Assembly (NCBI GenBank): GCA_015272465.1
Contig: JACYLR010000078.1
Coordinates: 1 to 34,241 of the forward strand
DNA: 34,241 bases
Source of the DNA: Gloeomargaritaceae cyanobacterium C42_A2020_066
Lineage (GTDB): Bacteria; Cyanobacteriota; Cyanobacteriia; Gloeomargaritales; Gloeomargaritaceae
Reading direction: 5' to 3'
Both the position numbers and the translations under genes were made by a program. Of the stretch, positions 6,432 to 10,559 are shown piece after piece. Under the pieces are notes generated by a model, which searched no databases, was not told the origin of the DNA, and saw only the letters and a program-made list of their open reading frames with translations. The number at the start of each line of letters is the position of its first letter. The first letter of the stretch is position 1.

Positions 6432-6821
6432 ATGGATCGTCAATGGTGGAAAACCTTGATCGCAACGGGCTTGGTGAGTCTGGGTTGTGGGGTGTGTCTC
6501 TCTCCTGCCAGTGCCAATATTCCTCGCCAAGTCTCCTGCCGCTCCTACTCCGAAAACTTCCAACGCTGTAGCGTCGATACTCGCAATGGGGTGAGGCTCC
6601 TGCGACAGACCGGCACTGCCCCCTGTACCTATGAAAAAACGTGGGGCTACGATGCGCGGGGCATCTGGGTCAGTGAAGGGTGCAGTGCGGATTTTCTGGT
6701 CGGAGTTGGGGATGGGCCAGGCAACCGCCCCTACACCTCGGACGATGACGCCCCATCGCTTTCCAATCCCTTTTCCCCAGCCCCTAAAGGCACGATGCGT
6801 TGGTGGGAAAACAATCCCTAG
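6432..6821 (+). CDS. DUF3011 family secreted cysteine-containing protein
   Basis: The protein has 129 residues with a signal peptide (GLVSLGCGVCLSPASA, cleavage near residue 28). The mature part follows the DUF3011 pattern: CRSYSENFQRCSVDTRNGVRLLRQTGTAPCTYEKTWGYDARGIWVSEGCSADF written with conserved Cys at four positions, then a Pro/Ser-rich tail. The four cysteines suggest two disulfides in an exported domain. Its function is unknown. Related proteins are usually described as periplasmic or lectin-like, but nothing here proves binding. It is convergent with the downstream ABC-2 permease, with a 33-bp gap and no visible terminator. Confidence 0.75.
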   Translation: MDRQWWKTLIATGLVSLGCGVCLSPASANIPRQVSCRSYSENFQRCSVDTRNGVRLLRQTGTAPCTYEKTWGYDARGIWVSEGCSADFLVGVGDGPGNRPYTSDDDAPSLSNPFSPAPKGTMRWWENNP

Positions 6822-6854: not shown

Positions 6855-7643
6855 TCAAGCACCCATTCCCGAATACTGGCGCAGCCCCCGCCGCCACAAC
6901 CAGCGGTTCAACACCCAAAAGGCCCCTAACCAGAACAGGATCACCAGGATGCCCCGGCCGGCCGCGACCGGCAGTCCCACCAGCAAGCTAGCGGGAAAAC
7001 TGATCAAGTACGGAAACGGCGTCCAGTTCAGCACCTGCACAACGGGTTCAGGGAAAACCGACAGCGGCGCCACCAAGCCCGACAAAAACAGATACACCAG
7101 AAACCAGAGTTCCTCCAAGGCACTGGCTCGCTCCGTCCAAAAGGCAGCCATCGCCAAGGTGTACTGCATTAGGAAGCGCAGGGCAAAAACTAAGGGAGCT
7201 ACCACCAGCAATATCAGGAGGTTGCGCCCGTCAGGAACCCAAAACGCCTGGGGATAGAGCCAGAAAAAGATCAGCACGAGAGCCAGGACAAAGGGCAGTC
7301 GCGCCACCCGTTCCGCCAAGTGAGACGCCACGTGTCGCCACACCGGGTCGATGGGTTGTAACAACAGGGGCGAGAGCTTACCCGAAACCACCTCCTTTTC
7401 AAATTCCCAGATCACCCAAACAATATTCAGTTGGCGCACCAGGAAAACCGCTAGGAAGTAGCGGGCAAAAGCCCGAGAATCCAGGCCGAATTGTCCTCCC
7501 TGGGCAGCTTCCATCCACACCCCCATAAGGATGAAGGGGAAAAGACCTGCCAGTACCCAGAGCACCAACTCGGCCCGGTATTCCACCATGTAGGCGTAGT
7601 AAGTGCTCAGGAGAATCCAGGCTCTTTTCACAAATCTTCCCAT
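6855..7643 (-). CDS. ABC-2 family permease, orphan
   Basis: The protein has 262 residues and six predicted membrane segments. It has the amphipathic YYAYMVEYRAELVLWVLAG beginning, VWVIWEFEKEVVSGKLSPLLLQPIDP and a C-terminal pair of helices. The pattern matches the COG4587/COG3694-type ABC-2 permeases that normally work as pairs with a COG4586-type ATPase. No ATPase or second permease is nearby, so it must pair with subunits encoded elsewhere. It lies 48 bp downstream of the glycine-rich operon on the same strand and may be cotranscribed with it. The substrate is unknown. An AGG a few bases before the ATG is a weak ribosome site. Confidence 0.8.
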   Translation of the reverse strand: MGRFVKRAWILLSTYYAYMVEYRAELVLWVLAGLFPFILMGVWMEAAQGGQFGLDSRAFARYFLAVFLVRQLNIVWVIWEFEKEVVSGKLSPLLLQPIDPVWRHVASHLAERVARLPFVLALVLIFFWLYPQAFWVPDGRNLLILLVVAPLVFALRFLMQYTLAMAAFWTERASALEELWFLVYLFLSGLVAPLSVFPEPVVQVLNWTPFPYLISFPASLLVGLPVAAGRGILVILFWLGAFWVLNRWLWRRGLRQYSGMGA

Positions 7644-7691: not shown

Positions 7692-8549
7692 CTACTGATT
7701 CGTGGAAACCACCCGATATACCGTTGTGCCATTTTGCATGAATGGCTGGTAAATGACGCCACTACAGTTTTCATACTGGACGCCATTTTGGACGACTACA
7801 GTACAGCCTTGGGGCAGGTAGGAAACGACAGCGCCCACTGGAGGGGCGACCACGATATATTGACTCCCCTGGGGCTGCATGTAGACCCCATCTGAGTAGT
7901 AGTAGGACGTACTGCCCGCATACACGGTGTTGTAGTAAGGGGGTGGCGATGAAACAGCGGCACCAATTGCTAGACCAGCACCAAAAGTTGCAACGCCCCA
8001 ACCTGGAGGTGTGGAGTAGCCCGTCCCATACCATCCACCCCCATGCCAGTTGTTATTGGTATTCACAGTGACATCATTGCCGACATTGATATTTCCGGTA
8101 TTGATGTTGCCAGTATTGACATTCCCCCGGTTTACATTTCCAGTATTGATGTTACCGGTGTTAACATTGCCTCGATTAACGTTGCCACTGTTCCAATTGC
8201 CAGTATTGACATTCCCAGTGTTGATGTTTCCCCTGTTCATGTTGCCCGTATTGACGTTGCCGCTGTTCCAAGTACCAGTATTGACATTCCCTCGGTTCAC
8301 GTTACCCGTGTTGACGTTCCCAGTATTGACATTCCCGGAGTTAAAATTGCCCCGGTTGAAATTACCAGAAGGAGGAGAAAAGTTACCCCGATCCTGAAGG
8401 TTGACCTGGGATTGGCCCCCAAAGCCACCGCCACCGCGATCAAAGCCGCCACCACCACCACCTCGGCCCCTCGCCTCTGCGGGACTGATAAGGGTGAGAC
8501 TCAGGGCTAGTGCTGCCAGAAGATGGAAGTTGATGTGCATGACTTTCAT
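7692..8549 (-). CDS. Secreted protein with GNxNx pentapeptide array and conserved C-terminal domain (paralogue B)
   Basis: The protein has 285 residues. A signal peptide (residues 1-26, ending AEA) leads into a Gly/Arg stretch, about 19 tandem five-residue repeats G-N-[V/I/F/W/M]-N-[T/R/S] (residues 62-156), a short Gly/Trp linker, and a C-terminal domain (about 175-285). That domain contains PPGWG, SSPPPYYNT, DGVYMQPQG, YIVVAPPVGA, SYLPQGC and CSGVIYQP, with two Cys that could pair. The C-terminal domain resembles DUF6515-type envelope proteins and is shared with the gene immediately upstream. The repeats resemble mycobacterial-type pentapeptides and may form a beta-helix or extended fibre. 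Its start overlaps the upstream stop (ATGA). No enzymatic motif is seen, so a structural or surface role is inferred. Confidence 0.85.
   Translation of the reverse strand: MKVMHINFHLLAALALSLTLISPAEARGRGGGGGGFDRGGGGFGGQSQVNLQDRGNFSPPSGNFNRGNFNSGNVNTGNVNTGNVNRGNVNTGTWNSGNVNTGNMNRGNINTGNVNTGNWNSGNVNRGNVNTGNINTGNVNRGNVNTGNINTGNINVGNDVTVNTNNNWHGGGWYGTGYSTPPGWGVATFGAGLAIGAAVSSPPPYYNTVYAGSTSYYYSDGVYMQPQGSQYIVVAPPVGAVVSYLPQGCTVVVQNGVQYENCSGVIYQPFMQNGTTVYRVVSTNQ
8082..8366 (-). repeat. Array of about 19 fifteen-base units encoding GNxNx
   Basis: In-frame 15-bp tandem units within paralogue B encode G-N-x-N-[T/R/S]. Position 3 is always hydrophobic or aromatic (V, I, F, W, M), and positions 1, 2 and 4 are nearly fixed. 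Codons vary between units, so the protein pattern is kept by selection rather than by very recent duplication. Confidence 0.85.
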
Positions 8550-9757
8550 GGGGGAAACTCCGAATTTTCGAGGACTAAACCTGAAGGATGATGTGAGGAA
8601 AACTGATTCTCTCGTGCCCCCTCACTGATTAACTCCTGACTGACATAGACCACTTGAAAGACAATCTCGCCATCTTGGAAATAAGGCTGATAGATAATGC
8701 CACTGCAATCAAAGTATTGATCGCCATCCTGTGTAATGGGGTTACATCCCTCAGGAAGATAGCTCACTGTTGCACCAATCGGAGGCACCACAACGATGTA
8801 GCTATTCCCCTGAGGTTGCAGGAAGATACCATCTGAATAGATAAACCTTGTACTACCGACAAAAACCGTGTTGTAGTAAGGCGGTGGAGATGACAACGCT
8901 GTACCAATTGCAAGGCCCGTTGCGAACCCGACAAGACCCCAACCGGGAGGGGTGTACCAGCCGCTGCCCCACCAGCCACCGCCCCACCAACCGCGGTTCC
9001 AATTATTGTTATTGTTCCAGTTCCTGTTGATGTTGACGTTGTTGCCACTTCCGATATTAATGTCGCCTGTGTTGATATTTCCCCGATTGATATCACCTCG
9101 GTTAATGTTGCCAATGCTACCTCCCTCAGAAGGGGGTCTGAAGCCAGGTCTAGTATTCCAGCGATTGTCTGAGACTTCTCCAGTACCAGGACGAGTCGAA
9201 GGTCGCTGACCTGTGCCTGTTCCTGGACGGTTGCTCCCAATCCCTGAATCAATTCCGGGTCGGGTTGAGGGACGTGTCGAAGGTAATGTGGACGGCCGGC
9301 CGGAGCCACCACTTCCTATCCCAGAGCCTGCACCGGGTCGAGTCGAGGGTAAAGGGCGTGTCGAAGGTAATGTGGACGGCCGGCCGGAGCCACTGCTTCC
9401 TAGACCAGAGCCTGTACCGGGTCGGGTTGAGGGACGTGTCGAAGGTAATGTGGACGGCCGGCCGGAGCCACCACTTCCTATCCCAGAGCCTGCACCGGGC
9501 CGAGTCGAGGGCAGGGAGTTGCGAGTTGGGGAGAAGTTACCACGGTTTTGAAGACTCTGCTGGGTATTTCCACTAAAGCCTCGGCTCCCCCCGCTGCGAG
9601 CACCCCCGCCACTAAAGCCACCACCTCCCCCTCCGGCGCGCGCACCGCCCCCACCACCGCCGCCGCGCCGTGCCCAGGCATCATCAGCTAATAGCAGACT
9701 CGAAGCCAGGACGAAGCCGAGGGCAAGACCTAGGTTGATAACCTTAACAAGCTTCAT
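8546..9757 (-). CDS. Secreted Gly/Arg/Pro/Ser-rich protein with conserved C-terminal domain (paralogue A)
   Basis: The protein has 403 residues: a signal peptide (about 1-29, ending AWA), a Gly-rich segment, a region of repeated GRPSTLPSTRPSTRPG and GSGIGSGGS units (about 82-185), a short run of GNINRGDINR pentapeptides, an Asn/Trp-rich linker and a C-terminal domain. That domain is closely similar to the downstream protein (PPGWG, GLAIG, SSPPPYYNT, SDGIFLQPQG, YIVVVPPIGA, SYLPEGC, CSGIIYQP). After the last shared residues (VVYVSQ) it runs 29 more residues into the start of paralogue B, apparently translated former intergenic DNA. It lies 16 bp after the DUF2092 gene and overlaps paralogue B by 4 bp. 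The pair arose by tandem duplication. The function is unknown and a cell-surface structural role is inferred. Confidence 0.85.
   Translation of the reverse strand: MKLVKVINLGLALGFVLASSLLLADDAWARRGGGGGGGARAGGGGGGFSGGGARSGGSRGFSGNTQQSLQNRGNFSPTRNSLPSTRPGAGSGIGSGGSGRPSTLPSTRPSTRPGTGSGLGSSGSGRPSTLPSTRPLPSTRPGAGSGIGSGGSGRPSTLPSTRPSTRPGIDSGIGSNRPGTGTGQRPSTRPGTGEVSDNRWNTRPGFRPPSEGGSIGNINRGDINRGNINTGDINIGSGNNVNINRNWNNNNNWNRGWWGGGWWGSGWYTPPGWGLVGFATGLAIGTALSSPPPYYNTVFVGSTRFIYSDGIFLQPQGNSYIVVVPPIGATVSYLPEGCNPITQDGDQYFDCSGIIYQPYFQDGEIVFQVVYVSQELISEGARENQFSSHHPSGLVLENSEFPP
9255..9510 (-). repeat. 78/84/78-bp tandem repeats, each with a GGCCGGCC core
   Basis: Units begin at 9255, 9333, 9417 and 9495 (the last partial). 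They are nearly identical at the DNA level, and the middle unit carries a 6-bp insertion, so the reading frame is kept (26, 28 and 26 codons). Each full unit contains one GGCCGGCC. The high DNA identity points to recent duplication by slippage or recombination, in contrast to the diverged GNxNx array next door. Confidence 0.85.
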
Positions 9758-9773
9758 GATTTGATGACCTTTC

Positions 9774-10559
9774 TCAGGGCTTCGAGACCGTTGGCAGAGC
9801 TTCGATGCGTAGTGCGCCTTCGGGCGGAGTAGTGCTGAAGTCCTTGTCGGTAATTTGGGGATTAAAGTTCCAGTTGGAGAAAACGGCGGTGTACTGTGGT
9901 GCTTCGGGTAAATCAGAATAGGTAATAACTATCTTTAGGGGTACAGGCTCAAACTCCTTTTCCTTATTGAGCCAGAGCTGCCAGGTGCGATCTTTGCCAA
10001 TCACCAGAATATGATCGGCCAGTGTCCGCCCGACAAACCCCTCGCCAACGTAATAGGCTGAAACGATGTTTTCGGAAGCCTTGCGACAGGGTTCTCCAGT
10101 CACCAAGTTAGAAAGGGGCAGTTCGATGCCCAGTTCTTCGGATAAGGCGGGAACCATAGCATCTACCGTGGAGGCTGTAGGTCGGGCAAGGTAGAGGTTC
10201 TTGGCAGTGTTCAGCCAAAGGAAAGATTTGCCGTCGTAGACGAAAAGGGTACGCCGCTGATCGCCCGTATACTCAACCCTCAGCCGATCAGGGCGAACTA
10301 GAATGACCTTCTGAAAAGCAGCATATTGAACCTTTTGTCCCCCAGACAGAACATTGTCATAGGTAATATCCGCCTCAACAGTAAAGGCATTTTGGCTACG
10401 CAAGAAGCTACAGAATTGACGAATGAGCCGCTCGGCTTTCTCCTGTTCTCCAGGACGAATAGGCTGTTCCGATGCTGCTATGGCAGGTGATCCAAGGAAT
10501 CCGACCAGCGAACCCCAAATCGCTGCCGAGAGCAAACAATAGCGAAGTTTTGCAAGCAT
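9774..10559 (-). CDS. DUF2092 family periplasmic protein (LolA-like fold)
   Basis: The protein has 261 residues with a signal peptide (residues 1-29, GFLGSPAIAA). It matches DUF2092/COG3900: SFLRSQNAFTVEADITYD, VQYAAFQKVILVRPDRLRVEY, TLFVYDGKSFLWLNTAKNLYL, an RTLADHILVIGKDRTWQLWLNKE middle and a VPLKIVITYSDLPEAPQYTAVFSNWNFNP end. The family is predicted to adopt the LolA/LolB half-barrel that binds lipid or lipoprotein tails, but no biochemical role is established. It is the first gene of a three-gene operon with two Gly-rich secreted paralogues, which suggests it helps their export, lipid contact or surface assembly (inference). The ribosome site AGAAGG lies about six bases before the ATG. 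The 143-bp gap to glmS upstream probably holds its promoter. Confidence 0.85.
   Translation of the reverse strand: MLAKLRYCLLSAAIWGSLVGFLGSPAIAASEQPIRPGEQEKAERLIRQFCSFLRSQNAFTVEADITYDNVLSGGQKVQYAAFQKVILVRPDRLRVEYTGDQRRTLFVYDGKSFLWLNTAKNLYLARPTASTVDAMVPALSEELGIELPLSNLVTGEPCRKASENIVSAYYVGEGFVGRTLADHILVIGKDRTWQLWLNKEKEFEPVPLKIVITYSDLPEAPQYTAVFSNWNFNPQITDKDFSTTPPEGALRIEALPTVSKP

Follow-up and report, generated by a model that had tools for sequence, protein, structure and literature searches.

A LolA-like DUF2092 protein and its DUF6515-like neighbour form a two-gene envelope module, with a doubled partner gene in a Gloeomargaritaceae cyanobacterium

INTRODUCTION

Contig JACYLR010000078.1 of Gloeomargaritaceae cyanobacterium C42_A2020_066 (assembly GCA_015272465.1; 34,241 nucleotides, the whole of which is referred to here as the window) carries a gene for a secreted protein of the family DUF2092, followed by two genes, A and B, for secreted Gly-rich repeat proteins with a common C-terminal domain. 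What task could bind three such genes together? An original prediction, made from the sequence, held that they share one job, possibly the building or anchoring of a repeat-protein surface layer or fibre, and suggested that the arrangement be sought in related genomes and in other phyla. Here we report that DUF2092 and the protein encoded next to it (hereafter the partner), whose tail in A and B belongs to the family DUF6515 (PF20125), constitute a self-contained two-gene envelope module, the partner gene being doubled in this cyanobacterium, and we consider what the module may do.

RESULTS

A partner gene follows DUF2092 in many phyla

Genome contigs were scanned with a four-sequence DUF2092 alignment, 80 loci being kept, and the partner was sought with an iterated profile of its C-terminal tail. 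The survey covers loci retrieved by DUF2092 similarity, the archaeal DUF2092 matches in control genomes being left out; loci are numbered with L and genomes with G. The partner tail was encoded by the next same-strand gene downstream of DUF2092 at 73 of the 80 loci, and at none of the 80 was a partner found only upstream or only on the opposite strand. At six of the seven remaining loci the contig ends early or the assembly is broken: at L023, L034, L048 and L049 the contig stops less than 500 bases from the DUF2092 domain, at L042 the DUF2092 gene is frameshifted and the contig ends 0.7 kb away, and at L021 the contig stops before or within the stretch that holds the partner in its Microcystis relatives. 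The search in other phyla thus placed the partner next to DUF2092 at 73 of the 74 informative loci, the sole exception being a frameshifted Microcystis DUF2092 gene (L035) for which no partner was found. The two genes overlap by exactly 4 bp in 22 of the 73 pairs and most of the remainder are less than 35 bp apart, while three Microcystis loci have 0.8–1.1 kb between them, a spacing seen at L018, L019 and L020 and also at L116, L118 and L119.

Pairs were found in Cyanobacteriota, Desulfuromonadales and other deltaproteobacterial-type lineages, Dadabacteria, Alpha-, Beta- and Gammaproteobacteria, Myxococcus, Gemmatimonadetes, Acidobacteriaceae and Omnitrophota, and are plasmid-borne in Acaryochloris, Gloeothece, Leptolyngbya, Azospirillum, Thiodictyon and rhizobia. 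No third neighbour recurred among 113 flanking genes, in which sulfatase, mechanosensitive-channel, AraC and DUF3313 genes each account for two or three. Sulfatase or arylsulfatase genes lie near four pairs (L033, L095, L098 and L100), yet they make up 2 of the 113 flanking genes in the tally. A single partner is the rule, tandem partners being seen in the window, L025 and L100, and the second partner gene in the window is a local addition. A Desulfuromonadales metagenome-assembled genome (G315, the genome of L025) has five DUF2092 genes, and one of its loci consists of two short tandem partners followed by a second pair. An apparent fusion of DUF2092 with its partner at L043 was rejected; it has an internal second signal peptide, and its junction has the look of a single-base assembly slip in metagenome data.

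The linkage was also followed in relatives and in unselected genomes. Among 39 genomes (the source and 38 relatives), two others carry DUF2092 and both have a strong DUF6515 match directly downstream; in G014 a second DUF2092 gene precedes a different Gly-rich protein, the tail of which was missed by Pfam and caught by a profile built from the family. Of 292 cyanobacterial genomes, 23 contain DUF2092 and 16 contain DUF6515. Strong cyanobacterial DUF6515 matches adjoin DUF2092 except in G127, where the two lie on different short contigs, and where Pfam gave no DUF6515 match the DUF2092 gene has a divergent partner instead; this assessment leaves out one DUF2092 locus (G112:C54) and some weak or fragmentary matches (G209, G124 and G128, plus two that have no locus). 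In 299 genomes of the phylum of Pandoraea there are 15 strong DUF2092 loci, with the partner in the next gene in 14; the tail profile recognized 10 of these partners, the other 4 were identified through the motif P-x-TP-x-S-x-AG, and the one remaining DUF2092 locus is at a contig end. In these cyanobacterial and Pandoraea-phylum samples each full-length DUF2092 that was checked and could be assessed has a partner. Overall, a full-length DUF2092 gene is almost never without a partner; partner-like proteins do occur where no DUF2092 was found.

Partner types are matched to DUF2092 clades

Partner classes were assigned by motif from the partner sequence alone (2unit, 3unit, 1unit, YGANGVYY and RPLTP) and mapped on a DUF2092 tree with 94 proteins, the labels being shuffled 200 times for comparison. 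The mapping takes 9 class changes against a shuffle mean of 53.2, a figure as low being reached in 0 of the 200 shuffles, although part of this clustering is due to close relatives. Partner subtype tracks the DUF2092 tree and not the host phylum; the cyanobacterial DUF2092 proteins fall into four separate clades, and every copy has the partner type of its clade. Genomes with two pairs (G014, RI_101 and Microcystis) have a different partner type at each locus, and inspection of partner tails revealed differing types in G050, G135, G159 and G261 also. These clade-matched types and the matched pairs within two-pair genomes indicate that DUF2092 and its partner move and evolve as matched units. 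Together with the near-universal linkage across phyla, this inheritance makes it very probable that the genes share one job, as had been predicted.

Fold of the DUF2092 protein

An earlier study placed DUF2092 in the LolA family by profile methods and reported the hydrophobic nature of the LolA cavity to be kept in it (PMC4520260). The window protein scores 225.7 bits against PF09865 (gathering threshold 21.2), and its AlphaFold2 model, from a 65-row alignment, has one domain ending near residue 253 (predicted local distance difference test 90.3, predicted template modelling score 0.83). Foldseek comparison of the model with the PDB returned LolA proteins as the best matches (8orn, E 7.7e-11), with a probability of 1.00 to many, followed at lower rank by RseB/MucB (2v43, E 3.1e-7; 6jau, E 2.5e-6), LprG and VioE. 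The LolA-like fold that had been anticipated is therefore confidently modelled, in agreement with the profile-based placement: DUF2092 is predicted to have the LolA superfamily fold, a half-open beta barrel with a helical lid. At the sequence level, its C-terminal region resembles TIGR00547 (lolA) weakly, the score of 14 bits not reaching the family cut-off of 112; PF03548 (LolA) was not reported for the protein in a Pfam scan, and searches by sequence gave no convincing solved relative of either DUF2092 or the partner.

Features common to the partners

All 74 of 74 partners have a signal-peptide-like hydrophobic start, and 72 have a second hydrophobic segment ahead of the tail, glycine-zipper-like in 70, as called by simple hydropathy and motif rules rather than by a membrane predictor. 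This Gly/Ala segment is 16–20 residues long and is followed by one, two or three beta units of ~45 residues each. Counted over the last 62 residues, 47 partners have two Cys, 23 have none and 3 have one; since the last unit tends to have either two Cys or none, the pair suggests a disulfide. A lipobox is lacking in 72 of 73 partners. Thirty-five of 56 aligned tails match DUF6515 at E 0.1 or better, and many paired partners lie below the Pfam cut-off.

The spacer with its repeats is the least conserved part: the GNVNTGN, RPSTLPSTRP, NRQ-rich, RNVNVN, Pro/Gly-rich and TASGG types differ fully in composition and length, and repeats are absent in L033, L097, L098 and L100. In a second partner class, which goes down to 70 residues in length, the motif GRPxTPxSxAGVARRTxRR replaces the repeats. 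Short proteins of this class were also seen in genomes without a detected DUF2092 (L179, with a degenerate motif, L181, L183, L184 and L197). A glycine-zipper protein encoded near the Gloeothece pair (L095:1527-2009) carries the motif YP-x-x-GQS-x-x-Q...D...CY-x-WA-x-Q-x-GFDP, and DUF6515-like proteins without DUF2092 at L182, L185 and L187 have a closely similar motif as their C-terminal tail.

Both window partners are built on this plan. A comprises a signal peptide, a Gly-rich stretch, RPSTLPSTRP repeats, a hydrophobic glycine-zipper-like segment, the DUF6515 domain and an extra tail, and B a signal peptide, a Gly-rich stretch, GNVNTGN repeats, a hydrophobic glycine-zipper-like segment and a C-terminal DUF6515 domain. 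The PF20125 matches (A, E 5.4e-14, 52.9 bits; B, E 1.3e-15, 58.1 bits; gathering threshold 24.9) cover the second half of the model. The common C-terminal domain with two Cys and the differing repeat regions, both described in the original prediction, correspond to DUF6515 and to unlike tandem DNA repeats, respectively (Table 1). A comparison of A with B did not resolve a recent duplication. The B repeats also match Pentapeptide_2 (PF01469; E 5.1e-16), possibly through composition; Pfam gave no PPE domain in B and no match other than this one and DUF6515. A model of the last 130 residues of B has two confident four-strand units (block means 85–96 from residue 41 onward), with low confidence for the hydrophobic segment, and its comparison with solved structures gave no analogue (best E 0.087) and no resemblance to LolB. 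The idea of a split RseB, with the partner tail as the RseB C-terminal domain, was rejected for want of a structural match (2v43, E 1.7).

The locus in the window

The three genes are transcribed from the minus strand in the order DUF2092, A, B and span positions 7692–10559, the open reading frame coordinates agreeing with the layout, the 16-bp gap and the 4-bp overlap (8546–8549) first described. Shine–Dalgarno-like stretches precede all three starts (AGAAGGA, GAGAAAGG and CGGAG). In the 2.73-Mb draft source genome this is the sole DUF2092 gene, A and B are the sole DUF6515 matches, and LolA (PF03548) was not detected. The last 29 residues of A extend past the usual end of the partner domain (8546–8635, minus strand), overlap the start of B and resemble read-through into the region before it.

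Table 1. Features of the DUF2092 locus (positions in the window)
Feature	Position	Strand	Remarks
DUF2092 gene, 261 aa	9774-10559	minus	secreted, single LolA-like domain; PF09865 E 5.5e-67
DUF2092/A gap, 16 bp	9758-9773	minus	
Partner A gene, 403 aa	8546-9757	minus	open reading frame, DUF6515 C-terminal match
A spacer, 78-bp tandem DNA repeat, 3.2 copies	9255-9511	minus	encodes three ~26-aa units
Hydrophobic Gly/Ala segment of A, GWGLVGFATGLAIGTALSSPPP	8879-8944	minus	residues 272-293
DUF6515 domain of A	8642-8908	minus	residues 284-372; two beta units, Cys338 and Cys351 in the last
Partner B gene, 285 aa	7692-8549	minus	open reading frame, DUF6515 C-terminal match
B Asn/Gly spacer, degenerate 15/30/45/75-bp tandem repeats	8085-8337	minus	GNVNTGNVNRGN-type units
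Hydrophobic Gly/Ala segment of B, GWGVATFGAGLAIGAAVSS	7947-8003	minus	residues 183-201
DUF6515 domain of B	7701-7967	minus	residues 195-283; two four-strand beta units, Cys249 and Cys262 in the last
ABC-2 type permease gene (PF06182)	6855-7643	minus	start 48 bp past B

Because glmS lies on the same strand 143 bp upstream of the trio and the ABC-2 permease gene follows B closely, the transcript may extend beyond DUF2092, A and B, and co-transcription of the permease gene is possible; the permease gene is not conserved next to B in the relatives examined. Promoter and terminator scans at the locus gave nothing above the shuffled or chance level. A small secreted DUF3011 protein (E 2.4e-14) is encoded on the opposite strand at 6432–6821 (+).

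DISCUSSION

We propose, with a probability of about 0.4, that DUF2092 acts as a periplasmic escort dedicated to its partner, whose hydrophobic segment it shields on the way to the outer membrane. After Sec export, the LolA-type cavity would bind the exposed hydrophobic segment, preventing aggregation of the partner or its insertion into the inner membrane, and DUF2092 would then pass the partner on to the outer membrane. There the glycine-zipper segment may insert or oligomerise, which would leave the variable spacer and rigid, disulfide-bonded tail exposed to the periplasm or on the cell surface. On this view a single escort would serve both A and B, clients that differ in their spacers. We think of an escort and its client because what the partners keep in common is a hydrophobic segment and a rigid tail, because LolA cavities are hydrophobic, and because no other gene is recurrent nearby; DUF2092 is taken as the helper since it is nearly always accompanied by a partner, while some partners occur without it.

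Several points weigh against this proposal. Linkage and co-inheritance fall short of proving that DUF2092 and the partner bind each other, and the hydrophobic segment, modelled with low confidence, could be an inner-membrane anchor. Partners without DUF2092 mean that some members need no such escort, and in the first L025 partner, L033 and the shortest Sinorhizobium/Rhizobium partners the hydrophobic segment is not clear or the tail unit is largely missing. Finally, LolA itself carries lipidated proteins, whereas the DUF2092-linked partners have no lipobox. It is more speculative, and rather doubtful, that there exists in many diderm phyla an undescribed pathway in which each LolA-fold escort is dedicated to one glycine-zipper client, non-lipidated and with a tail clasped by a disulfide, and brings it to the outer membrane without use of the Lol, Bam or usher routes.

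An alternative that is somewhat unlikely is that DUF2092 moves a lipid or glycolipid through the periplasm and that the partner is its membrane-bound donor or acceptor, in the manner of ApeL and ApeN. Lipid binding is common among LolA-fold proteins. The aryl polyene cluster pairs the LolA-like ApeL with the LolB-like ApeN, for which lipid transport was proposed (PMC8253772), and the reported retention of the hydrophobic cavity would suit a lipid. No lipid-biosynthesis or transporter gene is recurrent among the 113 flanking genes, however, the partner tail is unlike any solved fold, LolB included, and the strong spacer differences between partner subtypes would be odd in a plain acceptor. Those spacers bear equally on the idea of a surface layer or fibre, according to which a repeat-protein coat would be polymerised from A and B, with DUF2092 as an assembly or anchoring factor. 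Most partners do have secreted low-complexity repeats, the arrays are built from recent DNA duplications, and tandem partners occur in the window, L025 and L100; yet spacer sequence and length are what is least conserved, repeat-free partners are paired with DUF2092 just as well, and no secretion or anchoring gene recurs nearby. This part of the original prediction is not specifically supported, and we regard it as unlikely.

The RseB and MucB matches of the DUF2092 model raise the further idea of an envelope-stress sensor, in which DUF2092 would sense lipids or misplaced proteins and then release the partner, much as lipids are reported to antagonise MucA–MucB binding (PMC7400510). This is quite improbable: the recurrent neighbours include no sigma factor or anti-sigma gene (113 flanking genes), DUF2092 is without the second RseB domain, which the partner tail does not match either, and the partners have no cytoplasmic signalling domain. 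That the two genes simply travel together without a common function could be argued from the plasmid-borne pairs and the patchy distribution, both of which point to horizontal movement. It can hardly be credited, since order, strand and adjacency are held across several phyla while all other surroundings change, and since the subtypes remain matched; linkage and matching already contradict it.

Whatever the mechanism, two families of unknown function form one module, and DUF2092 and its DUF6515-like partner belong in a joint study, in which the matched subtypes make the specificity of the pair directly testable by swaps. If the escort proposal is true, the work of LolA-type proteins goes beyond carrying lipoproteins and lipids, and this cyanobacterium, in which LolA was not detected, employs a LolA-fold protein for another delivery task. 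In the available text of the literature on DUF2092, DUF6515 and COG3900 we found no published description of the pair, which is not confined to cyanobacteria. LolA-fold proteins with a dedicated partner are already known (RseB, and ApeL/ApeN as proposed); what appears to be new, within that literature, is a pair that stands alone and whose second member is a glycine-zipper protein without lipidation.

Among the systems with which the module may be compared, the C-terminal domain of A and B belongs to DUF6515, a family of no known function that also occurs without DUF2092, and B shares a PF01469 repeat match with the mycobacterial PPE-MPTR repeat proteins but lacks their N-terminal PPE domain. 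DUF2092 is like LolA (PF03548) in predicted fold, periplasmic location and weak C-terminal sequence resemblance, yet it falls far under the lolA cut-off and is gene-linked to one partner, without a lipobox in 72 of 73 cases, though it may have clients besides the linked partner. With RseB/MucB it has in common a LolA-like domain and a dedicated protein partner, but not the second small C-terminal domain, and a sigma/anti-sigma linkage was not found. A parallel in arrangement is ApeL/ApeN (PMC8253772), also a LolA-like protein gene-linked to a second envelope protein for which dedicated transport is proposed; the Ape genes, however, lie inside a large biosynthetic cluster, whereas the DUF2092 pair stands alone.

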